From Moniliella sp. 'wahieum' (lineage: Eukaryota > Basidiomycota > Moniliellomycetes > Moniliellales > Moniliellaceae): 64,000 nucleotides of DNA. Positions 8,377-53,565 of the stretch are shown here, piece after piece (positions within the stretch are counted from its first letter, which is position 1; each line of letters opens with the position of its first letter). Location: the NCBI GenBank assembly GCA_003971905.1, contig RSEE01000046.1, positions 459,490 through 523,489 on the forward strand, given 5' to 3'. The position numbers and the translations under genes were made by a program. Under the pieces are notes generated by a model. That model was not told the DNA's origin and did no database searches. It worked only from the letters and a program-made list of their open reading frames with translations.

Positions 8377-8951
8377 ACTATTAAGCGGAGGAAGGGGTTG
8401 GATCGTGCCATAATCAACCTTGTACGTTCAGTTGAACCTGCGAGTAGCTCCGAGCGGGGGCGCGGTACGGTGTTGTTGCCCTCGCCCTGGTGAGGGTTTG
8501 GCTGTGATGGTGGCGGGTGAAGCTTGCAGCTGGGCCAGTGAAACCGGGGAGAAAGTGGTTGTCCACGCACTCCGTCCACAGATCCGCCCACGACCGATGG
8601 TGATCGATGATCATGCATGGACATGCATGGACCCAGACACACTTCGTGCACAACACTGCCCCTCTGCTTATTGCTGCTGTTTTGGGGACGGCCTGCACAG
8701 CGGAAAGGGAACTTGCACCGATCGTAGCTGGTTAAATTCCGACAATACGTCACGTGACAAGTGACGCGCAAGGCGCGACGCCGCTGAGCATCAGCACCGC
8801 TCAGAGGCGCAAAGAATGGGAGACGAACTTCATGTTGGAGCTGCTTTCATTAATCAAGCACGCCCTGTCCGGCATAACCGAGGCAAGGGAACCTGCTTTG
8901 TCTCCACCCGTCCTAGCTCTAGTCCAACCACATCACAACAGCTAAAAAATA
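8377..8951. other. Intergenic, with ATCGAT/ATGCAT motifs and CACGTG
   Basis: No gene is supported. It contains a GATCGATGATCATGCATGG-like island at 8599-8632, part of the palindrome-heptad series, and a CACGTGA at 8751-8757. Confidence 0.4.
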
Positions 8952-9038
8952 CGCCCCACGTGGGACTCGAACCCACAACCGTGAGATGGACCTCTTCAGC
9001 ATAAGAGTCTCAAATTCTACCGATTGAAATAGCGAGGC
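8952..9038 (-). tRNA. tRNA-Lys(CUU) with 14-nt intron
   Basis: On the minus strand the acceptor arm GCCTCGC pairs with GTGGGGC, and discriminator G is at 8952. The T arm is GTGGG-TTCGAGT-CCCAC. The anticodon stem TGAGA/TCTCA encloses a loop with anticodon CTT, which decodes AAG lysine. The 14-nt intron (8988-9001) starts one base after the anticodon, the canonical place, and its AAGAG can pair with CTCTT of the anticodon region as usual for pre-tRNA. The D arm is weakly paired, but AATCGGTAGA matches the family. CCA is not encoded, as expected for a eukaryote. The segment 9039-9304 downstream of the OYE gene holds no other gene. Confidence 0.9.
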
Positions 9039-9304
9039 AGTTATGCAGGACCACGGTGCTACCCGTTACGTTGAGCTCAGTGGCCTATTCTGTTTTCACC
9101 GCCCTGCTAAAAGCCTGCCACCCATTCCCCTCCATAAAAAGACAGAAGAAGTGATACGAAAACAGCTATAGCTTCCCGCTCTGTAATACAAGCACACAAG
9201 TCCAAGAAAAGCAATTGATTACAGTCTTTATTTCTCACCTCCTACCCTCGTATCAGACGACAGCACACCGATTGCAGATGATGTGTGGGCAGTTGGAGAC
9301 GCGA

Positions 9305-10483
9305 TTAAGTTGCAGTAGGCCAGTCAGTGTAGCCCTTCGCCGACGAGTCGTACCACGTCTCCTTGGGCGCCACGGGAGCCCATTCCTTGCCCTCCTTGAT
9401 GCGCTCAACCAAGTCCGGGTTGGAGATGTAGTACCGACCCCACGCAATGGCGTCAGCGACGCCCGTGTCAACAGCCTGCTTAGCCGTCTCGGCAGTGAAC
9501 GATTCGTTCAACACCACAGGGCCTTGGAACGCCTTGCGCATCAGGTCATGGATGGGGGGCTGCCCCATGTCGCCCTTGTGTTCACCAGTGAACTGGTCCC
9601 AGAAGGCATTCTTGTCCTTCGTCTCACGCAGCTCGATCCAAGCAGTCCCCGCCTCCCGAGCGGCCGCGGCAGCAAGCGGGTACGTCGTTTCATACTGGTC
9701 GTCAATCGCGCCCTGCGAGTCTCCGTTGGGAGAGAAACGCGTGCCAACCTTGTCTCCGCCAATGGCAGCAGCGACAGCATTGACCACTTCACTGTAAAAC
9801 CGCACCCGCTTCTCCGGGCTTCCACCGTAGTCGTCGGTACGGTGGTTAGTAGAGCTGCACAAGAATTGGTCGATCAAGTAGCCTACACAGAAGACATGGT
9901 CAGTCAAGTGCTTAGTCAAATGAAGATCATAGCGATGTCTCCGGCACGTACCGTTGGCACCATGGATCTGCACGCCATCAAATCCAGCTTCAATCGCGTT
10001 CTTGGCGGCCTGAGCGTAGTCCCTGACCGTAGCGGCGATCTCAGGAACAGTCAACGGCCGAGCTTGCTCTGGATCAGCAAAGCCGGTTTGAGTAAAGACC
10101 TTCAACGACGGCGTAGTGGCCGAAGAAGAGACAGGTGTCTGTCCTCCGAGGAGCGAGGAGTGCGACATCCGGCCTCCGTGCCAAAGCTGACAAACAATCT
10201 TACCCCCCTTTTGGTGGACAATGGAGGTAATGGGCTTCCACGCGGTGATCTGCTCCTGCGTCCAAATCCCAGGGATGTTGGGGTTAGGCACACCGATTGG
10301 GCTGATGGCTGTTCCCTCGCTGATGATCAAGCCGGCCGTGGCACGCTGACCATAGTACTCCCCCATCACAGGGGTCGGAACATGGGTTTCCGTCGCCCGG
10401 GTCCGAGTGAGCGGTGCAAGAAAGATACGGTTGGACACCGTAATACTTCCAAGCTTGAGCGGGGTAAAGAGTTTGTTGGACAT
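9305..10483 (-). CDS. Old Yellow Enzyme-family ene-reductase (NADPH dehydrogenase)
   Basis: This FMN-dependent TIM-barrel flavoprotein reduces activated C=C bonds of enones and nitro compounds with NADPH, most likely in the cytosol. About 369 residues, normal for the family. It opens MSNKLFTPLKLGSITVSNRI and carries LAPLTRTRA (FMN-binding Thr). The active-site HGANGY (His and Asn bind substrate, Tyr donates the proton) lies around residues 174-179, and the family hallmark RTDDYGGSPEKRVRF follows. The C-terminal AIAWGRYYISNPDLVERI is the phosphate-binding end. An intron at 9883-9951 (69 nt, hence frame-neutral) interrupts ANG/YLID. The ATG at 10483 is preferred, as the open frame above it lacks ATG. 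Notably this gene has no frame break. Confidence 0.93.
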   Translation of the reverse strand: MSNKLFTPLKLGSITVSNRIFLAPLTRTRATETHVPTPVMGEYYGQRATAGLIISEGTAISPIGVPNPNIPGIWTQEQITAWKPITSIVHQKGGKIVCQLWHGGRMSHSSLLGGQTPVSSSATTPSLKVFTQTGFADPEQARPLTVPEIAATVRDYAQAAKNAIEAGFDGVQIHGANGTCRRHRYDLHLTKHLTDHVFCVGYLIDQFLCSSTNHRTDDYGGSPEKRVRFYSEVVNAVAAAIGGDKVGTRFSPNGDSQGAIDDQYETTYPLAAAAAREAGTAWIELRETKDKNAFWDQFTGEHKGDMGQPPIHDLMRKAFQGPVVLNESFTAETAKQAVDTGVADAIAWGRYYISNPDLVERIKEGKEWAPVAPKETWYDSSAKGYTDWPTAT

Positions 10484-10557
10484 GTAGAAAGTAGTTGTCA
10501 CTAGAGGTGGGAGAAGATGCGAGATGTGTGGTGTGATGAGCTGAAAGAAACACAGAG

Positions 10558-10570
10558 GCCTTTAAATACT
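10558..10570 (-). promoter_or_regulatory. Probable TATA box of the OYE gene
   Basis: The minus strand reads AGTATTTAAAGG here, about 80 bp upstream of the start codon, in a position and form usual for a fungal TATA element. Initiation downstream of it would give a short leader of about 40-50 nt. Confidence 0.4.
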
Positions 10571-12430
10571 TTTCGGTATGGCTTGTGAGGCCTGAGGCTC
10601 CTTCACAGCGTAACAGCGTCACGTTGTTCGTGCCTGGGCCGGGTACCACTGTCCGTGCGGCTTTGACCTCACAGGCTGCCACCCAGCATTGCTGAGGACG
10701 TGAGAAGACGGCATCCTGAGGGCCTGTTGACCGCCGAAGGGAGCGGGCAACAGGGTGGGTTACGATTGTATTGCGGTCATCATACATCAATGATGTCAAT
10801 GGTGCGTGATCGACGATCCAATTGTTACGCGAGTAACTGGCAAAGTATAATGTGACCGGAGTTAGCGCAGTTGGTTGCCTCTGTTTCAGCCTGCTTCAGC
10901 CCACGTCACACGTCACACATCGTGATGCACATCGCCACAAGCCCACGTCGGAGCCGAAAGTTCTACGCCGCCAGTGTAGGCTGCCCCAGTGCTGCTACAG
11001 GTTGTCCCCAGCTTGGTGGACCAAGCGTTCCTCTGACCCACTGCTACGTCCTTGGCTTATGTTGCATTGTTGGCAGGGGTTATTCAAGTGAGGAGTCGAA
11101 GAAGGTCGTAGATGTATCTACTGGGTCGGCGACAAGCTGTTTTATCGCCGATCATTTGACCGAACTGGCCCGGTTTGACCGATGGCTCCGTCACCGACAG
11201 CACCGCGAATCACGCGTCAGCGACTTCTGCTACGCTCTCGTCTGTGAGACAGAGGTCGGCCACCGCCCATCTCGCGGTGAAGTTGACTTGAGAAGAGTTT
11301 CAACCTTCAAGTGAAAAGCATATGAGGTGGATCCACAGTCCCATATGCTTAACGATGCCGCGAAGCATGAAGCTTGGCGCTTGAATCTTGAAGCCCGAGC
11401 TTGTTATGCTAATTGAAGCTTGGGGAGAGATTGAGGGCTAGTAAAAGACTAATTACTAAAGTGGGCCTACTCAGGCCCGCATTCCCTCAGCAACAAGAAA
11501 AGGATTTTAAGCCCGAATCATCAGCAGCGATTACATAGAGCGTTCGGACTATTACGGGTGGCGGCTGCTACGGCCTGTTACGACCGCCGGACACATTTGC
11601 GCGAATAACGGACTCAACATGCTCTTGTGCGCGGCGGCCCCTTTCCGCCTCTGGTCCGCCCTTCTTGTTACACCTCCACGATGCCCCCCCTCATCGCATC
11701 CCCAACACTTCTGCCTCTGCCTTGCTGGCCTCCCACAATATTAAAAACGTTTTCAATTGACCTAACGGATCCATTCTACTCGTCAAAAAGCGCGTTAGGC
11801 TAATAAATGTATGCTCTTGTCTCGCGGTAGCTGCGGCTCGAGTCGCCTGCGGCTGTTTCTTCTGTGGTATCTCTCCCACATGTCACAGCATCTTCCCATG
11901 TCATCTTCCGATATATCAATGCCGTATCAAATTGCCATCTTCCGATATCAATGTCATCTTCTGATATCATCGAGAGCATCTATTATCTCTATGTTGTGTG
12001 CATTCCATTGACAGAGCTTAAGGATGGGACAGGGGGAACGCTACGTCTAAACCGAACCGTTCATCTTGCGGGGGTTGTTTGGAAGCGCCACTAAGGTCAA
12101 GGAACCAGGGGGATTGCCAGGATATCAGGACCCTCCGGCTCTCGCCATCCGGTCCCGTACCCTAGGAAGCGCGTGTGGACACGGAGGAACGTGGTTGACA
12201 TACGAGCGAGGAACCATTTCCACTGAGACTTAGTAGCCAACTCCTTCCAATGCGCAAACAACTTGCCCGCCGTCTTGGTGCCGTAGTATCCTCGCGTCGA
12301 AACCAGGGGGAAAAATAAGATCGGCTGGGAAATCCTGCACACTTTTACGTCATAGGCACGTGCCGACCGGTGCCACGTTCCCAGCCACCCGCAGCCAGAG
12401 AATCGGTGATATTATTTGCCCTCTCCAGCG
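10571..12430. other. Gene-poor intergenic DNA
   Basis: Open frames on both strands lack motifs. Visible features are a CGTCACA heptad repeat at 10901-10930, AAGCTT-type motifs at 11368-11400 and 11413-11420, and imperfect GATATCA/TCTTCCGATATCA repeats at 11896-11970. The segment 12000-12350 is open in several frames, with no family resemblance seen. Confidence 0.35.
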
Positions 12431-12523
12431 TGGAACGGTAGCGACGGTGGAACGGTGGCTAAGGTGGCGAAGGGGACCGGTGGCTAAGGTGGCGAAGGGG
12501 GAACGGTGGCTAAGGTGGCGACG
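12431..12523 (+). repeat. Imperfect ~26-bp tandem repeat (3.5 units)
   Basis: The unit reads approximately GGAACGGTGGCTAAGGTGGC followed by GAAGGG. Copies start near 12431 (short), 12448, 12475 and 12500, and differ by single bases and small gaps. The array abuts the two GC-rich hairpins at 12533-12572, which suggests one composite element. Confidence 0.7.
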
Positions 12524-12532
12524 CAGCACCAA

Positions 12533-12572
12533 GCTGGGGCGAAGCCCCAGCCGACCGGGCCGTAGGCCCGGT
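12533..12572. repeat. Two adjacent perfect GC-rich hairpins (double-hairpin element)
   Basis: Hairpin 1 has arms GCTGGGGC (12533-12540) and GCCCCAGC (12544-12551) around GAA. Hairpin 2 has arms ACCGGGCC (12554-12561) and GGCCCGGT (12565-12572) around GTA. Each is an 8-bp perfect stem with a 3-nt loop, with 2 nt between them. Such paired GC hairpins are best known from mobile GC clusters or double-hairpin elements of organelle genomes; here they sit in nuclear intergenic DNA. Origin and function are unknown. Confidence 0.75.
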
Positions 12573-13463
12573 GGTCCTCCTCGTATATACATCCTCTCAG
12601 CCATATCCTCAGGCAACAATTATTATGAACCCTATCACCCGGTTGAGTGGCTTAGCTTGATGTTGCATCATGCCACTCCCTACGCCGTCGCTTCGGCTCC
12701 GATGAGGTATTATAACAGGGTATAGAGCAGAAGATAGTGTCATGAGTGACGACGGGGGGCCGAGCCCGACCGAGTCCGGCCGAACTCTTCCCCTCCCTTT
12801 GGCAGTACCGCCTAAGAAAAGATGGTGCAGGTGGATCTTGTTTGGTGAACCCCGCAACACAGCTCCTGTCCACTTTCCGTCCTTCTCGTTGATATATTAT
12901 CGACTACCGTCGTCAACCGCAACGCACTCAAGAATAACAGTATTGCACTTTTGGGGTATCAACGGTTTCGTTCTCTGTTTCCAACCCTCTGACACCTGTG
13001 AAGAACATATCTTTTACCAACCGCCAATGGATGACAGGTTGCCTAGCGACCAACGACCGACAAGGGTGTGGTGATATGGAGGTATTGTATCGGTAACAAT
13101 TGTCGAAAAGAGGCCAGGTGGCATCCGCTTTTCCTATGCCTTTCATTCGCTTTCCCTTCCCCTCTCATATCTCATCTCTATCCTTGGTCTGCAATGTAGG
13201 GCAGTTGCCAAGTATATGATTCCATTAGACACCGTATGGCATGCAAGGCTGAGGTGTGGACGAGGGAAGAGAGCCTCTACGAATCAACCGTAAAAAAGAA
13301 GAATGTTGGCTATGATGGTGTAGCTCTCACCAGCAGGCCAGAGAGTATATAAGGGTTAGCATGACACTGTTGTGAGAGATTGGCGAAAACACAGACGGTA
13401 GGCGACTGACGAAGACGGGGACTGGTTCCGACAGACCACTTTCGCCCTTTCTCTCTTCGAGCT

Positions 13464-13510
13464 TTAAGCTTCATCGATCATCGATCAACCACATGTCTTC
13501 ATCGATCATC
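13464..13510. repeat. Palindrome-heptad island (AAGCTT/ATCGAT + C)
   Basis: The array reads AAGCTT-C, ATCGAT-C, ATCGAT-C, then AACC, ACATGT and a further ATCGAT-C. Each unit is a 6-bp palindrome plus one spacer base, and the change from AAGCTT to ATCGAT keeps the 7-bp register. Confidence 0.75.
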
Positions 13511-13669
13511 TGCCTACGTTTGCATCTGCACAAATGGCGGAGTTTTTACTGCCACCTCGTCTGTTGGTTGAGGTGACCTTTGAGGTGACCTTTCCGGGAG
13601 GCCTGAGTAGGTTGCAGTTTTGATCTGAACTCGAACGTTGCTGTTTCACCATAACGGACGTCTGAAATT

Positions 13670-13724
13670 CGGAAAGCGGAAGCGGAAAGCGGAAAGCGGA
13701 ACGTTGAACATCGAACGTTGAACC
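13670..13724. repeat. Heptad island: GCGGAAA units followed by AACGTT-G units
   Basis: Three heptads of GCGGAAA type pass directly into AACGTT-G, AACATC-G, AACGTT-G. The 7-bp period is kept across the change of sequence. The GCGGAAA part is not palindromic, unlike most other islands. Confidence 0.7.
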
Positions 13725-14892
13725 GCGGCTACGTCACGGTGACGTATGCACGCGGGATATACTAGAGTACACTCCCTCTCATATCCCGCTCTCCCGCAAA
13801 AGGGGTGTCTGGGGCCCCTGTCAGGTAGCCGAGGTCTGCCACTGCCATAGAGCTGTGAAGTCCTCTTGGGCCTGCTAGGCCCCTTTTCGCCTTGGCGGCA
13901 CCCGCACCACAGCAGACCAAGCCCTCTGCTGGCCAATGCCCGCCCAGGATCTGGAGTGCTAGTGGCGTGCGAGATACCTGATGGGGGTGGTCTTCCGGTG
14001 ACTCTAGGTCGGGCAGAGCTTATCTAATGGACAGAGCACCCTTGATACCTCGGTGCTGTTCTGAGGCGCTCGCAAAATATGTGGGCAAAAAAAGACGCAC
14101 CAATTCATTGCCCCCGCCGATCTGCCCGCGTGGGAGCACACTGAAGTACTGGCTAAATCAAGTGAGTAGTGCGACACCGACCTGGTTAGGTTTGGAGGCA
14201 CGCTGGGTCCCTCTCGCCGCTGCCAGACGGAGGGGGACGCTGGAGACGTGCGTCTCCCAGGATGGACACCACGTGCTGGAGACCGTCTGGCCCCTCCTGT
14301 GCATCACCGCCCTCAGCGAGCTCAGTACGTTTACAGTGCTCAACGCCAGATACTCAGCTCGATCAGATGTCAGATCTCAGATCGGAGCGCTGGGCGTGTG
14401 ATATTGATACGCGCCCAGCCTCAGCGCCTCAGCAGAGCCTCTGCCTTCCGAATGAGGCCGGAGGGCCTCAGCGCCTGTGAACGTGAGCCTGTGAACGCAT
14501 GTGCATGTGAGCCCTCTGGCCTCTCGCGCCACATGCGTCATGCTGGGGTGTGTGCACACGCGTAGTGACCGCCTTCGCGACTCTCGCGGCGCCTTGTTGG
14601 TTCGCACCCGAGGGCTCCTACTGTAGCTACGATAGCGACAGGCCGCGCCCGCTAGGCTGTAGAACAGGCCAGACCATAGGCTAGGCCAGTGGTGGCTGGA
14701 CAACCCCTCGCTCAGCCGCACCATCCGTCTCTTTGTTCCGTCCGCATCGCCAGCATCGCATCAGCGACCCTTGCATCCTAGCACCGCACCAGCCCGTCGA
14801 TTAGAGCCCACACGCGACCCGGCGTTCGCTTATGCTCACCATCTCCATCTCCACCTCCATCTCATTCTCCCTCGCCCCTCTCCTTCCCCCTC

Positions 14893-22287: not shown

Positions 22288-22356
22288 TAACATGTCGCAT
22301 GTCACACGTCACATGTGTCACGTGTCATGCATCAGATCATGCATCATGCATCATGG
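22288..22356. repeat. Palindrome-heptad island (ACATGT/ACACGT/ATGCAT + C)
   Basis: Units read ACATGT-C, GCATGT-C, ACACGT-C, ACATGT-G, then CACGTG and ATGCAT-C repeated. Several units are perfect 6-bp palindromes and the rest are one-base variants. A second cluster with ATCGAT-C units follows at 22397-22428. Confidence 0.7.
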
Positions 22357-22429
22357 AGCCACACACTAGCCAGCGGCCGTGATCTCAATGACCTGTATGA
22401 TCGATCATCGATCACATCACGCATATGTT

Positions 22430-23338: not shown

Positions 23339-23386
23339 AGTGACTAGTGACTAGTGACTAGTGAAGCTTGAAGCTTGAAGCTTGAA
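23339..23386. repeat. Palindrome-heptad island: ACTAGT-G switching to AAGCTT-G
   Basis: Three ACTAGT-G heptads are followed directly by three AAGCTT-G heptads with no change in register or spacer base. This is the clearest example of the palindrome being exchanged while the 7-bp period is kept. Confidence 0.85.
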
Positions 23387-23490
23387 GGAGCAAGGCAGGG
23401 GAAGAAGTGATGCAAACAGGGGAAAGCAGTCCACAGGCGCCACAGGCAGGGGGAACAGAGGCGGAACGGGGCCCCTTTGCACAGGATTGT

Positions 23491-23573
23491 TCAGTTGAAC
23501 GTTGAGCGTTGAGCGCTGAGCAGCTTAGTACGTCCATGCAACGTTCAACGTTCAACTGAACGTTCAACGTTTA
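23491..23573. repeat. Inverted pair of AACGTT heptad arrays
   Basis: The left arm (23491-23511) holds AACGTT-G, AGCGTT-G, AGCGCT-G. The right arm (23539-23559) holds AACGTT-C units. The 21-bp arms are complementary except for one base, with a loop of about 27 nt. Further AACGTT units follow to 23573. Confidence 0.75.
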
Positions 23574-23615: not shown

Positions 23616-23652
23616 CCAGGGTTAAGACTTAGAACTTAGATCTTAACCCTGG
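23616..23652. repeat. Perfect 12-bp inverted repeat upstream of GPC1
   Basis: CCAGGGTTAAGA (23616-23627) and TCTTAACCCTGG (23641-23652) flank a 13-nt loop that is itself a CTTAGA doublet. The hairpin ends 137 bp before the GPC1 start codon. It may be a cruciform or operator; function unknown. Confidence 0.7.
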
Positions 23653-25194: not shown

Positions 25195-25955
25195 GGGTCC
25201 CGAAGAGTGCTGCCCAAACGCCTCTTGCCCGTGCCACCCCTTTCTCCCTCTCATTCCCTCTCCCCTTTTCATCCTCCTCTCTCTCGTTTGTTCGAATTGA
25301 TGCTTATTGTCAATCAGTACTCATCGTTTCTCCGTGATTTGTCACAACATTCCTGTCCATTTTGTGTCGCTCCACAACCCATATTCGAGCAATTCGCGGG
25401 CTACATGATGATAATGCAGTTCAGAGACGATACCGACCCACTGTGTGCCCCCGTTCCATTCTCAACCAATCATGAAGCATCAGCTGTGGTGTCGATGAAT
25501 ATTTTCTCACGAAAAGAACAAGGTGCCCCTGTTCGTCCCCAGCAAAAGCATGTTTGATACTGACAAGGTTCGCTCTTTGTGATGGTCTGGGGATGGCGAG
25601 GACGGTCGGAGATACACAAGGGGAGAGACCCACTAAACTTCTAACGAAAACGGATGTGGTTGATCATGATGGAGATGCAATTATGTAACAAACCGCGTAC
25701 ATAGTACGAAAGAACGGCAAAAGGGATAATGAATACAAAAAATAAGTGAGCCGAGCAACTGCGCATGCGAGAGGGAAAAAGCGGACTGACGAAGTCCGCC
25801 GTATCGACAAAAATGGAACCGTCGAGGGCGGTACAGAAGAACATCGGAAACGATGGAGAAAGGAAAGAGTTCGGAGAAGTAGGGAAGGTCCTGGGAATGA
25901 TCGGAAGAAGAGAAGAGTCGAGAAAAGGTGAATGGGCACAGTGTTGCCTGTGTAA
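25195..25955. other. Convergent 3' region of GPC1 and the zinc-finger gene
   Basis: A pyrimidine-rich 3' UTR-like tract follows GPC1 (25205-25290). The minus-strand side is purine-rich (25840-25930). No gene is supported. Confidence 0.4.
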
Positions 25956-30277: not shown

Positions 30278-31178
30278 GCCTCATCACGCGTGCAAGTGTC
30301 CTTTCGTCCCTTGCTTCCTCCCTCTACCACATCCGGCCAGGTTTGGTCTGTTTTGCATGCTGCTCATCAGACCCCTCCATTGAACCAGACTGTATACCGT
30401 TCCACCGGTCTCTTGGCGCTCAGCTCCAGTCTGAGCCGGGCTCGATTGCCCCCCGTGGCGCTTCCCCGCGCTGGCTCTGCTTGCTCCAATGCACATTTCG
30501 ACGATAATAATAGCTCGGGCCTTAGCTTAGGCCGTATAGGCCAAGGCTAGTGGGCGAAGCATTGGCGAGAGCGCGATCTTGGTGGGCAAGGAGGGGGTGC
30601 TTCAACACCTTCACTGCCACGTTCAAGAGAGATGCACCGCCGAACCGCATTGTTATTGGTCCTATTGATGGGGCAGTGCGCAGCCCTATTGCGTCCGAAT
30701 CGAAGATCTAACCCGACCCCGCCGGGTTCTCCGCAGTCTAGATGGTTTTCTCAGTGGTTCCTAGGGGTTCCCGATGGCTGCCGAAGCAATTCACAAGGCA
30801 GAAGAGGGTTAAACGTTAAACGTTAAACGTTAAACCGAACAGCGATCGATGATCGATGATCGATGATCGAGGTGATTCGGGGCTATGAATATAACCGCTG
30901 CTAGGGTTGACCGTACTAACGCACTGTTGCGATTGGGGCGCACCAGCCCCGTTCATCGTCATCAATCACCGATCATCTCAGTCATCCTGGTCGACGACTG
31001 CCGCCCGCTCCTCCCACCAGCATCGCCGCCGCTTGCCCGTCCTTATCCCCGTCCCTCCTGTCCTCATCTCCATGCCGGCCGTCGCAAGCCCTGAGAGCCC
31101 GAGAGAGGCCGACCACAGACGACTGGGCCCGCCAGCCGCGCGTCGTCGCACGCCTCGCCCTCGCCCTCGGTGGCGCAG
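30278..31178. other. Intergenic DNA with an AACGTT/ATCGAT heptad island
   Basis: The 3' UTR of GCV3 and the promoter of the NMNAT gene lie here. The only distinctive sequence is the repeat island at 30808-30871. Open frames at 30885-31200 on both strands look like shadows of GC-rich sequence. Confidence 0.4.
30808..30871. repeat. Palindrome-heptad island: AACGTT-A array then ATCGAT-G array
   Basis: Three AACGTT-A units (GTTAAAC period) are followed within about 8 bp by three to four ATCGAT-G units. Both have a 7-bp period. Confidence 0.85.
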
Positions 31179-34112: not shown

Positions 34113-35159
34113 GACGGAAAGGGTGGACGGAGGGAGAAACGAAGGCGATGGAGACGCTGGCGGGGTGTCGAGGGTTGGGCAGGGGGGGTGGGCCTTATAT
34201 CTATCTTCTGTTGGGGCCACTGCGCTTTGATCCTGGGGGCCAGAAGAAGGAGCCCGAGAGCATCAACGATTCCACAACACGTCATGCAGTCACAAAGTCA
34301 CCATATGTCTCGGTCACACACGGGGCCACCCGACCTCAGGCGCATCATGACGGTCCTGCCAGTCATGAAGGTTGTGTCGGAGCTCTCAAGCTGACTGCCT
34401 CAACCCACCAGCACCTACCTACTGCCCCCTCGCCCACTGTGTGACGTCATGCACGTTGACCTTCACACAGCGCCGAGTCAACGAAAATGGCCTACGAAGA
34501 AGGGAGAGACTCTGGTTGCGCGTCGATCCCCGTCGGCCTCATCGGCCTCAGTGCTCTCAGTACCTTCGTATTCTCAGTGCATTCGTGCTCTCGGTACTCA
34601 CAGTGCCTCATTCAGGCAAGCCGACCATTAGAGTAGACCTCAGACGCTCATTGCATCGGTCATCGACATCGTCGTCTCTCTTAGGCCAACCCTGACTATG
34701 GTGATCGATCAGGTGATCCAACAAAAGTGCAATACCCGATTCACTATTGCCCATCCCCAAAGTACCATCATATTGGGGTTACCAGGTTACTATTATTCTT
34801 TTGCTGGAGTGTGCCTGAGTGCCTGTCACTTGTGTTTACTCCAGAGTGTGATGAGTACTGAGTGGGAATCAGAAAGGAGTTTGGGACGAGCACGCCGCCG
34901 CAATGCTTGGCTCCTTTTGTGTTAAGAGTCTGAGGAAGACGAGTAGACCCACAAAAAGGATTCGTGGGTAGAGGGGAGTAGACATGGCCAGGAAGGGCCG
35001 GGAGACGAAGGAAAGTTGATTACAGGATTAATACCTAAAGGCCTTTATAACCACAGAAGACCGCAACACCCTCTCTCTCAATACAATGGAGAAGACTCTC
35101 AATACCTTCCTGCAACATTGAACGTTCTGGATTGGTTCCTGATGGAGCCAGCCTGAGGC

Positions 35160-35440
35160 CCGAGCGCTTCTGAGCGCTGCTGAGCCTCTCAGCCTCAGCG
35201 CTCAGCCTCAGTGCTCAGCCTCAGCTCAGTTCTCTGAGAGTTGTGCGTCCTCGCATGTGACATGTGATCGTCGTAACCCCTGACTGATGCATGTGATAAT
35301 AGGGAGATCCCCCCACAAGAATATCCGCTGTATCACGCATCTCAGCGCCGAGGCTCAGCGCTCAAACTAAGCTGTCTTCCCTTCTTCCTTTGTCAGCGGC
35401 TAACGCTTGTGGCTTCAAGCTTCAAGCTTCACTCACTAGC
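35160..35440. repeat. Cluster of AGCGCT/CTCAGC and AAGCTT-C heptad repeats
   Basis: At 35160-35228 CTCAGC, AGCGCT and TCAGCC units alternate with 6-7 bp spacing. A shorter copy lies at 35345-35368. At 35411-35440 two AAGCTT-C heptads are followed by ACTCACTAG. Together these resemble the other palindrome-heptad islands in a more degraded form. Confidence 0.6.
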
Positions 35441-35720: not shown

Positions 35721-38700
35721 AGAACGGGGAAAGAGCGAGACGCTTGAGACGAAGAAATTGGAAATGGGAGCGAGCTCGATCAGCGCAACCAAATAACTAA
35801 TTGCTTTTTTTTGCTTTGTTTTTGGGCTTAATTTGGGGGGCTGGGCCAACAAAAAGTTGGGGTATTGTGCGCAACCACCACCACCTATCGCCTACTTCCG
35901 TTGTAACGATGAGCCACACCAACGCCTAGGACCAGGCCGTGGAGAATATACTAGCCGCCTGAACGCGGTTGGCCATGCGACATCCATCCTTTTGCCCCCA
36001 GAGTATATTAACCACATCGAACATCAAAAGTCTCCGCGACTGTGAGATATGGCGTCCTGTATCCTGATTCCCGGTGGTGCTTAATGACGCCAGTAATCGC
36101 TCATGGTATCTGCTCGGCTCTGACACTACAGGGATCAAAAGACAACTGCCTTGGACCTTTTTCTACCGTCTTCCACACTCCCGTTGGAGGGCGCAGTTTC
36201 GCCCACCTTGTTTCCTTTTTATTAAGCGTTTTTTGCTTCCCTCCCTCTGTGGAAGGGAGCGTTCCGTCGGAAGATGCCACACTCTCCTCCGAGCGGCCCA
36301 TTATATTAGGATGAAGAATCATACTACATCTGGTCTTGATCCCTCACCATTCATCTGTGGGGCGGTACTACATGAGAGAGCGATCACTCATACAGCATGT
36401 TCAAGACGCAGCAAGCCGATATCATTTTTCAAGTCCTCAACAACGGTTCGCATACCGCGCTGCAGAAAAGTTCTCCAATGTTTCAGGGCGGGCCGCGGGA
36501 GAGGGCCTGATACTTCTCTCGAAAAGAACGGCATTGCGGTCACGCGGGGTAAGCGTCTACTAGTGAGCCCCATCGTTTGCTGGTCCCGAAGTCGGATGGA
36601 ACAATTTTCCTGTCGGTTCAGCGCTGCCATGCCGGCTTTGGGTGTAGTGGTGAACGTTGACCCCATCAAGTATGCCAGACTGGCAATCCAGGCGTTCCAG
36701 TTGACCCTTAGAAGCTCGCACTGAGAGCCACGGCTATTTGCTTAGCTCTGTCAATGCTGTTTTCAATGCTGTTTTTTTTGTCTTTTCGTTTTCCATCCCT
36801 CAGTTGCCACCAACACGTTCTTTGCTCTCCATATTACAAGCAGAAGAGACTAGGAATTTTTGGACGCCTTCAGTCCAAGCCACGCCCTCGTCTTATAAGC
36901 ACAGAAACGATAGCAAAAATCGTTTGGGATGCCATAGCGAGAACCATGCGCATTCGGTTCCGTCGTTAACAAGTTTTGATTATATCTCTTACCGACCTCG
37001 ACCCGGTTTGGTATCCTCGTCCTCGTCCAATCCCCTTTCGCTACCAGTTCATCTCTCCAGAATGCACCTATATGCCGTTGGTCTGAAGGGATGCACGAAC
37101 TATAGACGCTCCCTCCCTGTTATCAGGTTTCGGATTTGGATTCTGCTATCTACTTTCAGAGGTGGGTTCAAGGCAAAGGAAAGCAACGTTTTCGGCTGAG
37201 TGGACATTGTGCTGGTGGGAGTGGCATTCGAGAAGCTTGGTCCGCCACCCACATGTGCCGCAAACGCAAGTCTAGTTCTAGCTTCAATTTCCCATTGACG
37301 AGGCGCTCTCACTTTTCTTTCTTTCCCCGCGAGAGTTCCTCGCCTCTTTGGCCCTAGCCATGGGATTCATATATTGCACTTTGGCTGCCCGCTGGGACTG
37401 GAGGTCGGGAGACACTCGACGGGCAAATCCAAGTGCTCTCTGCCTCCCAATTGGGTGCCGGGCCCACTCCCATTTCGAACTACCCTCGATCAGGCGGTAA
37501 CATATGGTAGTTAGCGGCCCAAATGGCCTTTGCTCGTATTCTGACCCAGTTGGCCCTCATGCATCTTTTCCCCGGGTTCCGAACATACTGAATGAGAAGA
37601 CGCCATGGGTACTCCATGTCACCTCCGTTCCCATCGCCTGGTTGCCACTGGGCGCCTAGTTGCCACTGACCACGCTCGCCCACTGCGGATTCGGGTCGCC
37701 CTATCGCCTCTTTGAGCCGGAGCAAGGTGTCCCTCTGTTCCCACACGACAAGCACGGCCCACCCATGAAAGACGCAAGCTTGGTTCGTATCGACGCTCCG
37801 CCTCGTGGCACAAACGATGGCGTGTAGGCTACAGTGAGTTGCAACTGCAACCAGCGCTGTCCTAGCCAGTGCGCACGGATGGGCGAGGCGCGATTGGCCC
37901 TTTTGGCGTTGTGCCACCTCACTTGGACCTGCGCGACCTGACCGGGCCTGCCACTGACACTGACCGGAGCGGGTGCGAGGTGGTGATTGCAACGGAGGGT
38001 GTGGTGGTAGCCTATATCGCAACCCCATCGTCGCCACCGCGGGGTTTGCTGCGGGTCAAACTCTGTCAGACTGTCCAGCGCAGTGGCGTTGCTCTGCAGA
38101 GGACACCAGGATGGTCGGTTGTTGCGTGGAGGGTGGATGATCTGATGGCTGACGCGGGGGAAGACGGGAATGGGAGGGCGGGTGTGAGCATGCTAGGGTT
38201 GGCATGCAGCGACAGGCGTTGGGACGGAGCGCCCAGCTGCGCCTCAGCGCTGGGGCCATCGGCCCACTAGGAGGGTTGCAATGTGATGCGCGCAGAGGGC
38301 CCGCACACGCAGCCCTGGTCGAGCCAGAGTCGATAGGTGCCACCCGTTGGGGAGTGGCAAAACAGGGCTTGACATGTGGGGTTCCCAAGCGTTCCCACCA
38401 GATACTCAGATCCATGCCCAGCACCAACGTCCCCCCACGCTGATCCAATCGATCCAATCGTTAATCGGGAGACGAGCGGATCCAGATTCAACCGTGTCGG
38501 CCTATGTTCGCAGCCCATCGACCATCCTGCCTCCTGCCTCCCTCCATCTCCCGGCGTGATGGTCACGCGTTGCAACTGCACGTGGCCCCACGGGGTACTG
38601 CTTGCTCCCGCACCCCCACGGTGCGTCAAAGTGGGCCGGCGGGGAGGGCGGGGACGCGCCTGGCCAGGCCTAGCCGAGCACCGGTTCCTTCTGTCGAACG

Positions 38701-38958
38701 CTGGCTCAACGTTCAACCTGAGCGATAATCAATCAGTCCTGCCCACTCAGTACGTACTCAGTGCCAGTGGCACATGCAACCCTAGCCTTGGCGTCCAGCG
38801 CACGGCCCCCCCGTGGCTCGGCTGGGGTGCTCGGCGGTGATCTGGGGCGATAGTGGATGGACCACCCATCGATCCATCCTGCCCGCCCAAACAGACGCAC
38901 ACACGCCACCCATCCTCTCTCTGCCCGCGCCCGCCTGGCTCTGCTCTGCGTGTCCACC

Positions 38959-42532: not shown

Positions 42533-43503
42533 GGTGGAGCAGCGCTGCGGCACCAAGGCGCGGCGAGCGGCTGTTCCATGCAGGCCTCTTGTTTGCTGCT
42601 GACCGCCCACGCCTCCCGCCGGGCGCACGGCCAATGACGCCGCCTATGTCCGTTGCGGCCGAGCGGAGCACATGTTATTAGTGACGCAGATGCAGGTGCT
42701 CCGTGCCTGCCATTCGTCACGTGCGCCGTCACCCCATCATGCACCACAGGTCACACGTGGGTCACATGACCATGATCGTTGCAATTTGAAATTGCCTGTC
42801 TGATTCAGTGCATACCCCAGCCACCCAGGGGATGCAACGCGCCGGTTCCCCGACCCCATGACCACCGTCCCTTGCCCCCGTCGTTGAAACGACGAGGTGG
42901 AGACGGCCAGGCGGCCAGCTATCGCTCTACTCTGTCACGTACTGGCCCAGTACCGAAAACAAAAGGCCAAGAACGGGAACGAGGACCAACCAAGAAACGA
43001 GGATCGTTGAAGAACCGCAAGAGAGAAAAATAGGGCGGTGGGAAGTGGAGCTTGCAAGTCGAGACCAGGAGCGTGGAACATTCTTGCGTGAGGTCCGGCA
43101 AAAAGCCGGACGGAGTAAGGGATGTGAGAGATGATGGGAGAACGGGATGGAATGTAATGCGGTGACCGGTGACCGAGGACATGGGGGTGGGAGGGGAAGC
43201 GGTCGGACACTTGAAGAAAATGTACAAGTCCAGGCTTTTCATTGGCTCAAGCCACCAAGGATTAGAGACAGCGGGTAAGGAACCCAGGCTAGGTTATGGG
43301 CTTACGATTTGCGGGGGGCGTTACGTTGGTAAATCCCGTCCACACGCCGACCAGAGGAAGGAATACAATCAATGCAAGTGTCACGATCGAGTCCCTGTGC
43401 CACCACTTGACAACCTCAAGGCGGTGCGCCAAGAACGTCTAATTCAGGGTTGAGGGGGAGGGAAGCTAATAGGCACAATCCGTTGGGGGTCAGTACATGC
43501 CCT
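42533..43503. other. Intergenic region with a CACGTG site
   Basis: No gene is supported. The SDR promoter lies in the left part, with TCACGTGC near 42717 and TCACATG nearby. The right part (42900-43480) is purine-rich and may be the 3' UTR of the RRM gene. Confidence 0.35.
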
Positions 43504-44191: not shown

Positions 44192-44877
44192 CTGGAGGGG
44201 CTCGGGGTTAGCAGAAGGACAGGACGAGGTCGCGGGTGGGGAGGGGAACGCACAGTGAAAAGGGGGTAAGTGGGAGGAGTAGGGAGAGGCTGGGAACCGT
44301 GAAGATGGTGCAAAAATGAACGAGGCAGACACGCCGGGGCCAATAGGAAGGTGGAGGAAGGGAGGGGAAGAGAAGCACAGGCGCGGAAAGGGACGCGAAG
44401 CCAGGAACGAACGGAGCTGGTTCGAGCCAAAACGGAAACGGCAGATGGAGGCAAGGTGCTGCAACCTGCATGACCCAACCGAAAACGCCGCAGGCCAACC
44501 CTAGCAGGACCTCGCAGCCTTGTTAGTACTGACTGGGCGCCCCCTGGACAACACCCCAGCGGCGAATACACACTGGCGCCCTGCCGTCCCGCGCGAGGCC
44601 ACCGGAATGCAATGATCAATGATGCATGATGCATGCATGATGGCCCAGAGGTTCCTGGGAGCCTCTCACACACCGGTGCAACACGTGTAGCCTGAAATCT
44701 GCCACACAAAGTTGACGTAACTGTACGCGACAGGGGCGGATCACATGACCACACGCTCCGCAGCGATCGCGCTTCTAGTAGAGCCTCTCGACCGCACTTG
44801 GGCTTCACTCCATCTGGTGGTTCTGCAACCACCTCCTGCACGCGGCGAGCAACATCCTCTCCCGCAGCGTTTCCGCT
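44192..44877. promoter_or_regulatory. Shared divergent promoter region (RRM / ZCCHC10-like)
   Basis: The 686 bp lie between two divergent start codons. They contain the CT-rich leader of the RRM gene, an ATGCAT heptad island at 44611-44643, and an ACACGTGT near 44679. No other gene is seen. Confidence 0.45.
44611..44643. repeat. Palindrome-heptad island (ATGCAT + G)
   Basis: Two ATGCAT-G heptads are preceded by TGATCA and followed by a partly overlapping ATGCATGATGG. The island lies within the divergent promoter of the RRM and ZCCHC10-like genes. Confidence 0.7.
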
Positions 44878-46242: not shown

Positions 46243-46335
46243 GGCGAGATAGCGAGTGGTTAACGCGCTGTGTTTAGGTTCCTTGGCCTACAACCGCAGT
46301 CCTCCGGGGCGTGGGTTCGAACCCCACTCTCGTCA
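46243..46335 (+). tRNA. tRNA-Leu(UAG) with 15-nt intron
   Basis: The acceptor arm GGCGAGA pairs with TCTCGTC (46328-46334), with discriminator A at 46335. The D arm GCGAGTGGTTAACGC is of leucine type. The anticodon stem CTGTG/CGCAG encloses anticodon TAG (46275-46277), which decodes CUA. The 15-nt intron (46279-46293) begins one base after the anticodon and contains CCTA, which can pair with the anticodon TAGG. An 11-nt variable arm (TCCTCCGGGGC) supports a class II tRNA. The T arm is GTGGG-TTCGAAC-CCCAC. A T7 run just downstream (46337-46343) fits a Pol III terminator. The stretch 45810-46242 before it holds no gene. Confidence 0.92.
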
Positions 46336-46343: not shown

Positions 46344-48782
46344 CACCTGTTTGAATTGGATGATAGCGACTAAGGGCACATGTGACAGCCTCATGTGAGC
46401 CAGTAAGCAAGGACCAACATGAACCCAGCGACGCAGATTACGAGTGCTGGCTGGCACATGATGGGGGACTGGTTACAGACATAAACATCTCACAGGGTGT
46501 AGTAGCGGTAGCGTAGCCAGTGGTACAGATAGATGGTGAGGCCCGGAGCTCTGATGCATGATGGTCCTCGGCGGCGATGCAATCGCACTAGTGGGTGGTG
46601 GTGGTCTTAGGCCAGCCAACGCACGCTACAGAGGAACATCAAGCAGGTCGTCGCCACCAAGGACTGCTAGGTTGCGAAGCAAGGAAAACAGAAGCGAGAA
46701 AACAACGGAACTTCTATAGGCCTGATGGGCCTGATGGGCCTGAGGTCTGATGAGGGGTTGAAGGGACCTTGACTCAAACACGCGCCCTGCCCGTGGTTGC
46801 TCAACAAAACAGGCGCGAGCAGAGTGACAAGGGGATGGGGGGGGGGCACTGGGAAGCTTGGGCGGGGGACTCTAGCGCTCAACGCTACGCTGAGATCCCC
46901 TGCTTACCCCTGGGGGAGGCGAGCAGGCAGGGGAACAAGTGTTGTGGGGATGCAATCAGGCGAAGGCAACCCGGAGGCGCCAGAGGAGGGCGGGGTCAGG
47001 GGGGGGGAGCGGGGCAGCCTCAAGGGCTGATCTTGGCCGACGGAGATGGACGTCCACGCAGGATTGATGTTGTCGATGATCATCGATCACAGAAGGCTGC
47101 ACCGTCGACTTACACCCAACCTCAGAAGGCCCAAGAAGTTCTATCAGGATATCACAGTGCACCCAGTTCTTCGGCTTAAAACGTGTTGACCAATGTGGAG
47201 CTGGGCCGGCTGTACTCCGATGCAGTCGGACTTCGGGCGTGACATGTGACATGTTGGCGTGGTAAGCGCTCCCATGTAAGACTGGCATGCTGCCGGAGGT
47301 GCTGCCTTGGGAGATAGATATGCTGACCGAGTGGCGTGCTGTCATCTGCTGTCACCTTCATCACATGTCCATGTCACATGTCATATGTTTTGATCTGCTG
47401 GTGAGCTGCTGGATCGCTGGAATCGGACGTCTGCGTCGCTGCCTGCCGCTATGCTCCCGGCGATCGCTTCCCGTTTGCCCGGGCGTCGGTCCACGTTCCT
47501 GTTCGAGGCACACTAGCGCACACCGCCGCTGAACGATCTGAACGCCTGAACCTCAACGTCTCAACGTACAGCGTAAACCAGAAACGATCTAGTGATGGTT
47601 GATTTTCATGTCAGGCATCTGCTCACTGTCGTGGCGACGATCGCGATGAGCGCTGTCGATGAGTCGATGAGGCTGGCTTGAATTGGATGCCTGGAAAGGC
47701 AACACGGAAGCGAGCCAGGGTTTTCGCTTGACGGCGACCGGTGACAGTGACCGATGAGTACTCGACGGAGTACGTACTTACGTTTGTGCCGACAAAGGGA
47801 CCCAGAGTTAGCGCATGACGCGTGAGTACGTGAGTACCTGTGAGTATGCCAGCGTGTAATGGTCACCCTAAAAAGATTCTGGGCTTTTGATGGCTCTTCA
47901 GCCTGGTGCTCCAGCAGTTCAGCCCGCTCCGCCAGCGCCGTTTGCTGAGTGCTGAGTTACTTTTTAGGCGGGTACGTTACCCCCGCCACTGGCACAGGAC
48001 CCGAAAACCATCGGCTTCCGGCAGCCAGGGCAGGTAGTAGATAGTAAGACCGGTAATATAACGGCACCCGGCAACATGCAACAGGTGGCCGTGGCCATGG
48101 CAGGCCAGGGCGGCCCACTGGGCTCACCGGCACTGGTCACTGGTCACTTGTAGTCACATGCACACTGGTCCAGTTCCCCACTACGTATCCGCCCAGAATG
48201 GATCCCACGGCAGGCCGTTTCGAATCACCTCAGCCGTCCGTCGCTGTCTCCCTCTCTGTCGGATCATCGGTCAGATCGGCAGAAACCTCCATCGCTCCAC
48301 ACTTCCTCCCCGCCCTCCCCACCCACGGAAGCTGCAAAATCCACCTGCCTCTCCGGCAAGTCACACACCGCAGGCCTTAGGGCGGTGAGCTCAGTCGCTC
48401 AGCTGCTCATTCGCCTTGTGCCCCTCAGCCTCAGACAGCACTGCGCCACTTGAGCGCTTGAGCTTAGCACAGTCTTCACGTATTTGCCTGGCAACTCGTC
48501 AAGCGTTCCTGCGCTGTACCATGGCACCTGCAAATCCCGATAACACGCGGCCTGAGCTTTTCGTCTTTCTTTTATCCCCTGCCCCTCCACCCCCCCCCCA
48601 AGTTCCTTTCCCCCCCTCTCCTCTTTGCCCTCTTCTAGCGCCGCTTCTATTCTTCTTCCATTCCGGTTCCTTCTTCGCCCTACCGGCCACGCCGCTTCCC
48701 CACCTGTTGTCTTTTCACAGGCACACACACACCGATTATGCCTGCTGCCGCTGCCGCCACATAGCCCCACCCCATCCCCAAC
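46344..48782. other. Gene-poor intergenic DNA (2.4 kb)
   Basis: No protein gene is supported. Visible features are a GGCCTGATG triplet repeat at 46720-46745, an ATCGAT/ATGATC cluster at 47070-47090, ACATGTC motifs at 47230-47250 and 47365-47390, and GAGTACGT-type repeats at 47755-47850. The last 250 bp are CT-rich and form the likely leader of the glucanase gene. Confidence 0.35.
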
Positions 48783-50755: not shown

Positions 50756-51538
50756 CGTCTCCACCAGCCCATGCACATCTTCCCCCTCCCATGGCCTTTT
50801 TACAGACAGTATCAATTCTCTGCGCATGTTTCGCCCATCACCGATCATCGCCGTCGTTCCCTGCCACCCCACACTGTATACTTCACATCGCTCTTACTGT
50901 TGCCCATTGTTTTGGTTCTGCTGTTTCTCAATCTCATGCTGTCAATTAGTATGACCCCGCCGAGTGCCCCCATGATCTGGCTGCGAAGTGTCAGGAGGTC
51001 GCCATGATTGCATGACCTGGGCCTCCCTCATAGTGCATATTAGCTAGTGAAATTTGCTGTCGGGACGTTGATTTTGAAAGGAGGAATACGTATGCTGCAT
51101 CATGATGATGTGCATGATGGGCGTGGAGATAATAGATAGAGTAGGAGTAAGCAGTGAACTGGTGCTTCGTGACGGAAAGCAATGAAGGACGGGGTGAGGA
51201 TGCAGTCAGGGGATGGCAGACCTGACTAAGGCAACAAATGGGTGGATCAGGCCGAAGGTGATGACACTGTAACTGCTTGAGTGCTGCGTTTGTGGCGCTG
51301 GTATTGAACAGCAACTGTGCCACCTGAGGCTTGGGATGGGACGCGGGCGATGGCAATATAGAAGAGCAGGAGGATAGGCGCAAGAGGATCGACGCAGATT
51401 GGTGTGGCCTATAGCAATTCTCAAGACAATACTATCCACAATTCATCGAAAAGAAAACAACAGTATCATATGTTCGTCAAAGAAAGCCGAACGAGACGAA
51501 GAGGTCATTTTCGAGGAACGTGGGGAAGAGAGGCACTG
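50756..51538. other. Intergenic DNA
   Basis: A pyrimidine-rich 3' UTR-like tract follows the glucanase gene. No further gene is supported on either strand. Purine-rich sequence precedes the stop codon of the next gene. Confidence 0.35.
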
Positions 51539-52337
51539 TTAGGCAATGCTATGCCCCGAATCAGAGACAATGAGTTGGCCAATCGTGACTGGACTCTTCA
51601 AGAGACCAAGGTAAGTCTGGGCAACTTCCGCAGGCGTCGCGAGGGCTTTGGTCAATGTGCCTTGGGCGAAACCCTCCTGAACTTCGGCGGGGTAAGGGTC
51701 GAGTAGCGGGGTCGCCACTGGTCCTGGGGCCACCACGTTCACGCGCACGTTCAACCCGATAGCAGCATAGTCAAGCGAGATGGATTTGGCAAGGTTGTGC
51801 AGACCACCAATGAGGGAAATTACGCTTGCCCCAGCGTTTGGTCGCACAAGGATGGATCCTGTGGTATAGACCAGCGCCCCACCGCGGGCAAAAAAGTCGG
51901 TTGCGACATGAGCCAATTGCAGCACCAGGCCCACCCGCGTCTCAAACGTCAACACGGCCTTTGCATAGTCAAGCCTGTCCACCGTGTCAAACGGGGGAAG
52001 CCCACCCGGGCGGCGGTGAGGACGATGTTGTCTACCTTGCCCCCCCACTCGGTAGGAAGCTGAGAGAAGAAGCGGCGTAGTTCTTCCTCGTTGCCGCGCC
52101 CCGGTTCAGGTCGAGGGTGCGCCCCCAGGTGCGGCTGGCATCGGCGTTGTACTGTTCCGCTGGGTTGGTCAGGTGCGCCACTGCGTCGTCCACCTTCGCT
52201 TGGCTCGACGATGCCACCACCACTTGCGCGCCTTCCTCCACCAGCCCCGAGGCAACCCCAAAGCCGATTCCCGAAGTGCCGCCGATCACGACGGTCCGTT
52301 TGCCACGCAAGACTCCAACAACTTTAGGTGCGGCCAT
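51539..52337 (-). CDS. Short-chain dehydrogenase-like protein lacking the YxxxK motif
   Basis: About 266 residues. The cofactor motif is intact: KRTVVIGGTSGIGFGVASGL, then EGAQVVVASSSQAKVDDAVA. After a frame break near 52060 the chain continues VDNIVLTAAR, RGGALVYTTGSILVRPNAGA (Ser-region equivalent) and SVISLIGGLHNLAKSISLDY, then NVRVNVVAPGPVATPLLD, a conserved SDR C-terminal motif, and ends IGQLIVSDSGHSIA. At the place of the catalytic Tyr-x3-Lys the sequence has Ile-Ser-Leu-Ile-Gly-Gly-Leu, with no tyrosine at the expected position. Fungal SDRs of this subgroup often have lost this tyrosine, so it is probably a divergent family member and not an error. The substrate is unknown. A TATTTATA element lies at 52411-52419. 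Confidence 0.8.
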
Positions 52338-52410
52338 CTTGTGAAAAACAGCGAAGTATAGTCGGTGGTGTTGGAGAGAGAAAAACGGGGCGAGGGGATC
52401 GATAACGAGG

Positions 52411-52419
52411 TATAAATAG
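52411..52419 (-). promoter_or_regulatory. TATA-like element of the SDR gene
   Basis: The minus strand reads CTATTTATACC about 75-80 bp upstream of the SDR start codon. Confidence 0.45.
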
Positions 52420-53565
52420 TGCCATTATGCATTATGCATCACGCTATGACAGAGAGCGACTCCGAAGAACCGCTGCCCCGGATCCTGGCTATTTGTGTCC
52501 ACAACAGCCACAACCCGCTTGGAGTTGAACGTGAGGCTCACACCCGTTGGGGGGCTGACGCCATGTCCTGGAACTTGAAGCTTGAAGCTTGATGGTGGAG
52601 CTAGAGTATCGATGATTGATGATCCATGACAAACGCACGAACCCCTGCGCCAGACCGCGGAAATGCTTTCCCCCACTTACCGGCGTTACCAGCCTCACGT
52701 GACGTGTCACATGATCCATGTCACATGTGGAGTCGCTCCTCTGCTGCCCGCCTGACCAGCTTCACCCGATACACCCGACTGAGGGCTTCCGCGGACAGGC
52801 TCCGCGGCAGGCTCACGCGACAAGAACGTCCGGTCGTCCCAGGGGTCCTGGAGCTCGTCCTCGCCCTGCCTCTCTCCGCTGGTTCAGGAGCGTCCCAATA
52901 ACGCCGCCTGCACCACCCAACACCAACTTGGTGTACTTCCCATAAACTCCAAGAGAGAAAGGAACCCGAATCCGGGGAATAGTCATTCACCGCTTGCACC
53001 ACCGTCCCCCGGTCGAATCGAGTTGAACACGTTCTTAACATCAAAACCCCGTAGTTGAACTTGCTCCAAGCCGGTCTCTTCCTCACAGACCAAACGACCA
53101 ACAGCCGCACAATCGGCTCCATACCGCCTTTTTTGCACCTGACGCCCAACTGAGTGCTACAGACGAGTAACCACATCGACATGTAGAAGAAGCACCTTGT
53201 CCATAACGCAGTAAAACAGCTCACCGCAAGCAATCAAGTCTCTCTCCACCATCTGGCCTTTTTGCAAGAGCCGTCAACCTGGTGGCGCGCAACAGCCGAC
53301 CACCCGGGCACGTCCCATGAAACATGGCTCATGCCCTGACCTTGAGAGCTGCTCTAAAGTCATCGTGCTTCAGAGCCAACTGGAGAAGAGGGATCGACAT
53401 TCCGCCCACGCGTCCCCACCCCACGGGAGAAGCTGCTTGTCGCGCCATAGATGCCCTTATGGCCAAGGATGTGAGCGGTAGAGTGGGAGGATATGGGGGC
53501 ATGCATTGGTCTGTGGGGGGGCTGCGGGGAGATCATTGAAGGATCGGTAAGTGGACATGGCATAG
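52420..53565. other. Intergenic DNA with AAGCTT and ACATGT motifs
   Basis: AAGCTT-G heptads lie at 52571-52592 with ATCGATGATTGATGATCC following, and CACGTGA/ACATG motifs at 52696-52730. A 170-codon open frame on the minus strand (52721-53233) is Trp/Arg/Cys-rich and matches nothing I know. It could be a chance frame, so it is not called as a gene. Confidence 0.35.

Follow-up and report, generated by a model that had tools for sequence, protein, structure and literature searches.

What are the short, evenly spaced repeats that lie between the genes of a 64-kb stretch (the window) of contig RSEE01000046.1 from Moniliella sp. 'wahieum', a eukaryotic sequence with a G+C content of 58%? A preliminary description had read them as arrays of 7 bp in which any hexamer palindrome is followed by one spacer base. 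We find a narrower rule, and a unit that does not need an array. The element is TGA-N4-TGA (or TCA-N4-TCA), 10 bp long, in which the four middle bases (N4) are self-complementary, and it occurs either alone or in 7-bp arrays. The data come from one window of one genome, and several tests were run on the same sites that prompted them. Scripted counts cover 61.6 kb, the final 2.4 kb, a 40-bp satellite, having been excluded.

A self-complementary core between direct TGA triplets

The palindromic element was found at 42 sites, against a mean of 1.76 in 50 dinucleotide shuffles (z 26.8). Markov models of order 2 to 5 gave means of 1.8 to 4.3 and a maximum of 7 (order 5, 40 sequences: 4.3), and a control restricted to noncoding DNA gave 1.3-1.7. 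The excess is not a product of chance. Nothing was found to support an origin in chance or base composition, and local dinucleotide shuffles together with Markov models up to order 5 leave this explanation with practically no probability.

The rule was located by varying both the palindrome and its surroundings. Pairs of hexamer palindromes 7 bp apart were abundant when the hexamers began with A and ended with T (20 versus 0.4 in shuffles), whereas the T..A, C..G and G..C classes stayed near chance, so that the idea of any palindrome with any spacer had to be abandoned. Since palindromes in register begin with A and end with T, the spacer falls inside a TGA or TCA, rarely a TAA (as at 30808); it is indeed G or C and occasionally A, as first described, but it is not free. 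When all triplets were surveyed as flanks (strand-folded, with palindromic spacers of 2, 4, 6, 8 and 10 bp), TGA/TCA with 4 bp led. The runner-up with a 4-bp palindrome, TAA/TTA, was weak (6 versus 0.5, z 5.5), and no other even palindrome length or flanking triplet in the survey showed a comparable excess. An odd spacer of 3 bp between CTC flanks (36 versus 12.0, z 6.8) was ascribed to period-6 coding repeats and set aside. The direct arrangement of the flanks matters as well, as TGA-N4-TCA and TCA-N4-TGA with palindromic N4 were found 3 and 2 times (0.8 and 0.9 expected), compared to 42 for the direct form. Palindromes of the form A-N4-T that lacked both TGA flanks were only about 1.7-fold enriched. 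Within this frame, 13 of the 16 palindromic tetramers were used as cores in the 61.6 kb; AATT, ATAT and TATA were absent from the 42 sites. The possibility that the basic unit is a bZIP-like odd palindrome, yxTSAx'y', was rejected, as this palindrome was barely raised outside exact arrays (153 versus 127, z about 2.5).

The 7-bp period was evident without reference to palindromes. Same-strand TGA triplets lay 7 bp apart in 95 pairs (33 expected); distances of 9 and 12 were also raised (z 4.3 each), an effect that we attribute to periodicity in coding DNA. Exact period-7 repeats with a match run of at least 8 numbered 23 versus 1.25 in 20 shuffles, and arrays of this kind stand well above shuffled sequence. 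Period-6 repeats were likewise in excess (18 versus 1.25), an effect put down to coding repeats. Of the 11 array sites originally listed, eight show two or more A-N4-T palindromes that keep the 7-bp register: 13464, 22288 (with pairs at 22339 and 22400), 23339, 23491 (pairs at 23540 and 23559), 30808, 35411, 44611 and 52571. The other three do not: 8599 is a single heptad followed by a 10-bp period, 10901 is a repeat of CACGTCA whose hexamer ACACGT is not palindromic, and 13670 has two AACGTT at a distance of 14 bp, which enclose a broken unit. Arrays of at least three palindromic units comprise only four with A-first units and two triples (448 and 55587) with unlike palindromes and unlike spacers. 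The exchange of one palindrome for another in kept register is present for AAGCTT-C to ATCGAT-C and for ACTAGT-G to AAGCTT-G. The series AACGTT, AGCGTT, AGCGCT also exists, though its middle member is not palindromic.

Register arrays are therefore real, but the element does not depend on them. When second units were called by match thresholds, 17 of the 42 sites lacked one, compared to 1.74 in shuffles (maximum 5). Four of these (13499, 22325, 23496 and 43163) lie in or at most 30 bp from arrays. Under a stricter rule, which allowed no other TGA-N4-TGA within 30 bp and no period-7 run, 13 sites remained versus 1.7 (maximum 5), an enrichment of about 8-fold. Because lone copies are enriched too, the arrays appear as extensions of a 10-bp element. 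Around the 17 sites, a match to the heptad was seen mainly at the nearest 1-2 bases.

Imperfect copies indicate which property is maintained. Among sites without a second unit, those with both N4 pairs complementary exceeded expectation 10-fold (17 versus 1.7), those with one complementary pair about 2-fold (outer only 14 versus 6.0, inner only 10 versus 5.8), and those with neither not at all (20 versus 18.3). Over all sites, cores with a single G.T mismatch on the TGA strand were found 16 times versus 1.8, those with a single A.C mismatch 7 times versus 2.1, and those with any other single mismatch 9 times versus 8.2. We conclude that complementarity is what is kept, with departures of the transition type. 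The outer T and A were kept jointly (T..A 18 versus 1.7; T without A 13 versus about 6.5).

Placement relative to genes

The position of the copies was compared with a self-trained coding map, which is approximate, comprises 16.9 kb of coding-like DNA and covers only part of the genes. None of the 29 loci fell into coding-like DNA, in agreement with the earlier statement that the arrays occur only between genes. The P value by length (9e-5) is overstated because open frames exclude TGA; a fairer expectation, taken from non-palindromic TGA-N4-TGA (7 of 53 in coding DNA), gives P 0.016. Mapped gene starts are approximate and were placed partly by eye, and longer gaps may contain unmapped genes. 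With this reservation, four divergent gaps (11.4 kb) held 17 loci and four tandem gaps (6.7 kb) held 8, while the five mapped convergent gaps (3.3 kb) held none (P 0.016, calculated on the 25 loci that fall into mapped gaps); 4 loci lie elsewhere. Slightly more than half of the loci (15 of 29) precede a mapped gene start by 85-590 bp. There is no strand preference: of 21 loci with a mapped gene downstream of them within 1.4 kb, 11 read TGA and 10 read TCA in the direction of the gene (hand count).

Clustering of the loci in noncoding DNA was marginal (median neighbour distance 343 versus 695 bp, p 0.052). Neighbours tended to share a core: two of three locus pairs 20-60 bp apart had the same N4 (0.23 expected), and in a broader set, flanked at both ends by G or C, this was the case for 5 of 9 pairs (0.72 expected). 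A single core identity along a whole promoter was considered and rejected, as sharing reaches only about 200 bp.

What could make and keep the element

The explanation that we tentatively prefer, although it falls short of an even chance, is a promoter-region element that is recognised as a dyad and has been amplified through duplications of 7 bp. A 10-bp core, TGA-xy-y'x'-TGA, would lie in promoter regions and take part in gene control, and its dyad-symmetric middle would be recognised by one DNA-binding protein with two-fold symmetry or by a set of related proteins, each with its own choice of xy. The TGA (or TCA) on both sides would be shared by all copies, and xy would vary. Cores may then have been multiplied locally by tandem duplication of 7 bp between two TGA copies, a step that would yield arrays and preserve the register even where cores are exchanged. 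We favour an element that is read because of the upstream location, the absence from mapped 3' gaps, the lone copies and the joint conservation of the outer bases. Noncoding, upstream and orientation-free placement would be in keeping with a cluster of transcription factor sites, within the limits of an approximate gene map and a coding P of 0.016.

Several observations speak against this explanation. One of 23 near-palindromic sites is coding (44082, inside the RRM gene), and another (50838) lies in a convergent gap. Of the 29 loci, 10 precede a mapped start by as much as 0.7-2.3 kb, 3 lie downstream of the nearest start, and a single locus is 3.8 kb away; the placement itself depends on approximate starts, a partial map and long gaps that may hide genes. 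Other hexamer palindromes, too, show a weak tendency for neighbours to be the same. A transcription factor site should have a definable base preference in its core, yet N4 is free save for self-complementarity. With 13 of 16 tetramers in use, no single protein would read any palindrome, and the explanation would require several. Finally, a symmetric dimer should accept inverted flanks equally, yet the two inverted forms together amount to only 5 sites (1.7 expected). The direct arrangement fits an origin by 7-bp duplication, and is hard to reconcile with both protein-reader and hairpin readings.

The main rival is a mutational origin, which would need no function and is possible, if somewhat doubtful. 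Self-complementary heptads would fold back on themselves, the palindromes pairing with a G.G or C.C mismatch at each seventh base as CNG triplets do at each third, and polymerase slippage would make and keep them in open promoter DNA. CNG triplet repeats are themselves self-complementary, each unit being a palindrome plus one spacer base, and form hairpins with one mismatch per unit; the window element differs from them, as they have period 3, a fixed sequence, long arrays and no single-copy form. That self-complementarity rather than sequence is preserved, and that near-palindromes with G.T or A.C mismatches are in excess, argues for such a process. Folding around 26 of the 29 loci was also stronger (mean z -1.15, versus -0.14 for 60 random noncoding windows; mononucleotide shuffles), although the palindromes by themselves would produce this. 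Hairpin growth accounts for the arrays and the wobble-like departures. It does not account for the restriction to A..T hexamers with TGA/TCA (TAA) spacers, other centres and even lengths being without comparable excess, nor for the lone copies, which have no partner to slip against. A repeat kept for its hairpin would be built from any self-complementary unit of the right length, which is not what we observe. Plain microsatellite growth would obey no rule beyond unit length and would leave copies of one unit. The latter holds for some arrays, but 13 sites stand alone, units switch within arrays, and TGA/TCA (TAA) with a palindromic N4 is required. The data thus argue against both a generic hairpin effect and plain slippage. 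Decay of CpG was rejected by reasoning, as its expected product is TGA..TCA and not TGA..TGA.

Other processes are less probable. It is unlikely, though conceivable, that the element is defined by self-complementarity as such, with any palindromic tetramer allowed inside an unchanging TGA frame; the self-matching cores, which would differ from locus to locus, could then let like sites recognize like. Such recognition could act within a promoter or between chromosomes, as a regulatory or a chromosome element. We consider it rather improbable that the copies are the trace of a cutting and joining enzyme (of the transposase, recombinase or topoisomerase type) with a preference for symmetric sites, whose action would leave behind duplications of 7 bp or self-complementary ends of 4 bases. 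By reasoning, 7-bp duplication of the odd palindrome y'x'TGAxy would yield TGA-xyy'x'-TGA directly, and bases adjacent to the 17 sites agree with this prediction more often than by chance (0.47 and 0.65 at the positions just after, 0.47 at the second position before). However, the match is far from complete and ends after 1-2 bases, whereas the 10-mer is perfect, which is not what a decaying 14-bp duplication would leave; moreover, in a set of 17 sites, chance alone gives values up to 0.53 at distant positions. A topoisomerase II scar was rejected on its period, which is 7 here and 2-4 nt, in some cases 5 nt, for the duplications described in the available text of PMC11477040. Least probable among these is a role at the RNA level, in which transcripts would pair through the palindromes and tolerate G.U. 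The surplus of G.T over A.C on the TGA strand (16 to 7) points weakly in this direction, but these counts are too few, and partly from shared arrays, to serve as proof of RNA pairing. There is also no strand preference relative to genes, and flanking stems at 22 one-site loci did not clearly exceed those at random positions in length (p 0.07).

No described element with this rule was found in the open-licence literature, among the matches listed. E-boxes (CANNTG) are dimer sites in promoters with fixed outer bases and a variable palindromic centre. The window element differs in having direct TGA flanks, a four-base centre and nearly all palindromes. Heptamer arrays are known from bacteria. TAACTGA direct repeats of marine Beggiatoaceae, Cyanobacteria and Bacteroidetes are intergenic and reach 43 copies in some species; like the window element they have a 7-bp unit with TGA in two to several copies, but, as far as the available text describes them, they are bacterial, with a single fixed unit and no palindromic core (PMC4679880). 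The G-rich GGGAATC and GGGGA(T/C)T repeats of Xanthomonas and Nostoc, studied for quadruplex formation, likewise form heptamer arrays between genes, many with few copies, but the units given in the available text are not palindromic (PMC4692102). One fixed type, as in these bacteria, does not describe the window with its 13 palindromic cores.

DNA motifs are usually set by the bases they hold, and here the middle four positions are instead constrained by complementarity in a TGA frame. Selection on the element would point to a protein family or pairing process of which we found no description; a mutational origin would point to an unusually specific mutation process outside genes.

Positions of the copies, neighbouring features and viral heptads

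Table 1. Copies and arrays of the TGA/TCA element, in window coordinates (strand as read; "lone" denotes a copy standing alone).
Position	Strand	Sequence	Context
8601..8610	+	lone TGATCGATGA	
8847..8856	-	lone TCATTAATCA	
10586..10595	+	lone TGAGGCCTGA	
11210..11219	-	lone TCACGCGTCA	
13466..13508	-	AAGCTTC, ATCGATC, ATCGATC, then another TCATCGATCA	
13699..13723	+	AACGTTG-AACATCG-AACGTTG, broken middle unit	
14370..14379	-	TCAGATCTCA inside 7-bp repeat TCAGATC	
22290..22414	-	TCA heptads, cores CATG-, TGCA-, TCGA-type	GNAT gene downstream
23341..23387	+	best array: (TGACTAG)3 then (TGAAGCT)3, register unbroken at switch	~400-450 bp upstream of DUF2838 gene
23494..23571	.	TGA heptads ACGT, GCGT, GCGC, then TCA heptads ACGT inverted	
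25314..25323	-	lone TCAGTACTCA	
30808..30835	.	AACGTT-A heptads (TAA variant)	
30844..30870	+	(TGATCGA) array	cytidylyltransferase-like gene downstream
34852..34861	+	lone TGAGTACTGA	
35195..35204	-	TCAGCGCTCA, no second in-register copy; near-palindromic unit 13 bp further	
35258..35267	+	TGACATGTGA inside 7-bp repeat CATGTGA	
35355..35364	-	lone TCAGCGCTCA	
35412..35431	-	(TCAAGCT) array	
36651..36660	+	lone TGAACGTTGA	
38706..38715	-	lone TCAACGTTCA	~100 bp upstream of approximate branching-enzyme gene start
43163..43172	+	TGACCGGTGA inside 7-bp repeat CGGTGAC	
44610..44635	+	TGATCAA then (TGATGCA)2	between divergent RRM and zinc-knuckle genes
46552..46561	+	lone TGATGCATGA	
47080..47089	-	lone TCATCGATCA	
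47239..47254	+	TGACATG heptads	
47370..47383	-	TCACATG heptads, inverse of those at 47239	
47816..47825	+	lone TGACGCGTGA, then TGAGTACG-type units of different length	
52576..52592	+	(TGAAGCT) array	short-chain dehydrogenase gene downstream
57879..57888	+	TGACATGTGA; exact repeat absent, 5/7 unit match in preceding 7 bases	

The promoter region with the best arrays also contains a perfect inverted repeat (23616-23652) with 12-bp arms CCAGGGTTAAGA and a 13-base centre within a 7-bp repeat. At 47500-47830, a cluster of 8-bp TGA/TCA units (TGAGTACG, TCAACGTC, TGAGTCGA) lies next to 7-bp ones.

Pfam recognised genes for a complex I 30 kDa subunit, NADH:flavin oxidoreductase, a carrier-protein synthetase-like protein, GNAT, DUF2838, glycine cleavage H, a cytidylyltransferase-like protein, short-chain dehydrogenases, RRM and zinc-knuckle proteins, and a family 5 glycoside hydrolase. 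The branching enzyme gene was called from an alpha-amylase domain and solved relatives. As we read them, the genes have short introns, and on this ground and by its gene set the sequence was judged to be fungal. The complex I 30 kDa protein matched two chains with near-equal scores, E 4.8e-44 for one, which we take to be that of Chaetomium, and 5.4e-44 for an animal chain. Two long tRNA genes, likely intron-bearing, lie at 8951-9039 and 46243-46335 (tRNA-Lys CTT; the anticodon of the second is ambiguous). Minisatellites are present at 7490-7589 (unit about 33 bp), 12437-12521 (about 26 bp) and 27992-28107 (about 41 bp), and the satellite with the 40-bp unit occupies 61644-64000 in about 59 copies and continues past the end of the window.

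Heptads with TGA are widespread in themselves. Their 17-mers occurred in viral contig stretches (13 for TGACTAG, 44 for TGAAGCT, 24 for TGAACGT). Viral and window DNA share tandem TGA-N4 arrays, but the viral ones are mostly without the palindrome rule: among the matches listed, 5 of 148 viral arrays of at least 5 TGA units were over 80% palindromic, and four of these five were alike and came from a scan chosen for a palindromic core. None of the viral loci fetched had more than 3 palindromic cores, in a rough comparison, as these loci are shorter than the window. With arrays of at least 3 TGA units masked, the viral loci showed no excess of the TGA element (54 versus 84, a crude expectation that includes one masked-N row); by the same crude estimate the window gives 42 versus 5.6. 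In the viral loci from L014 on, likewise masked, ACT flanks around a palindromic N4 were in excess (208 versus 123.5, crude estimate). Viral loci L277, L282, L284, L285 and L290 carry several separate heptad arrays of the TGAACGT, TGAACAT and TGAACTT type, some on both strands, and L002, L008, L011 and L012 mix TGACTAG with TGACCAG or TGACTGG heptads.

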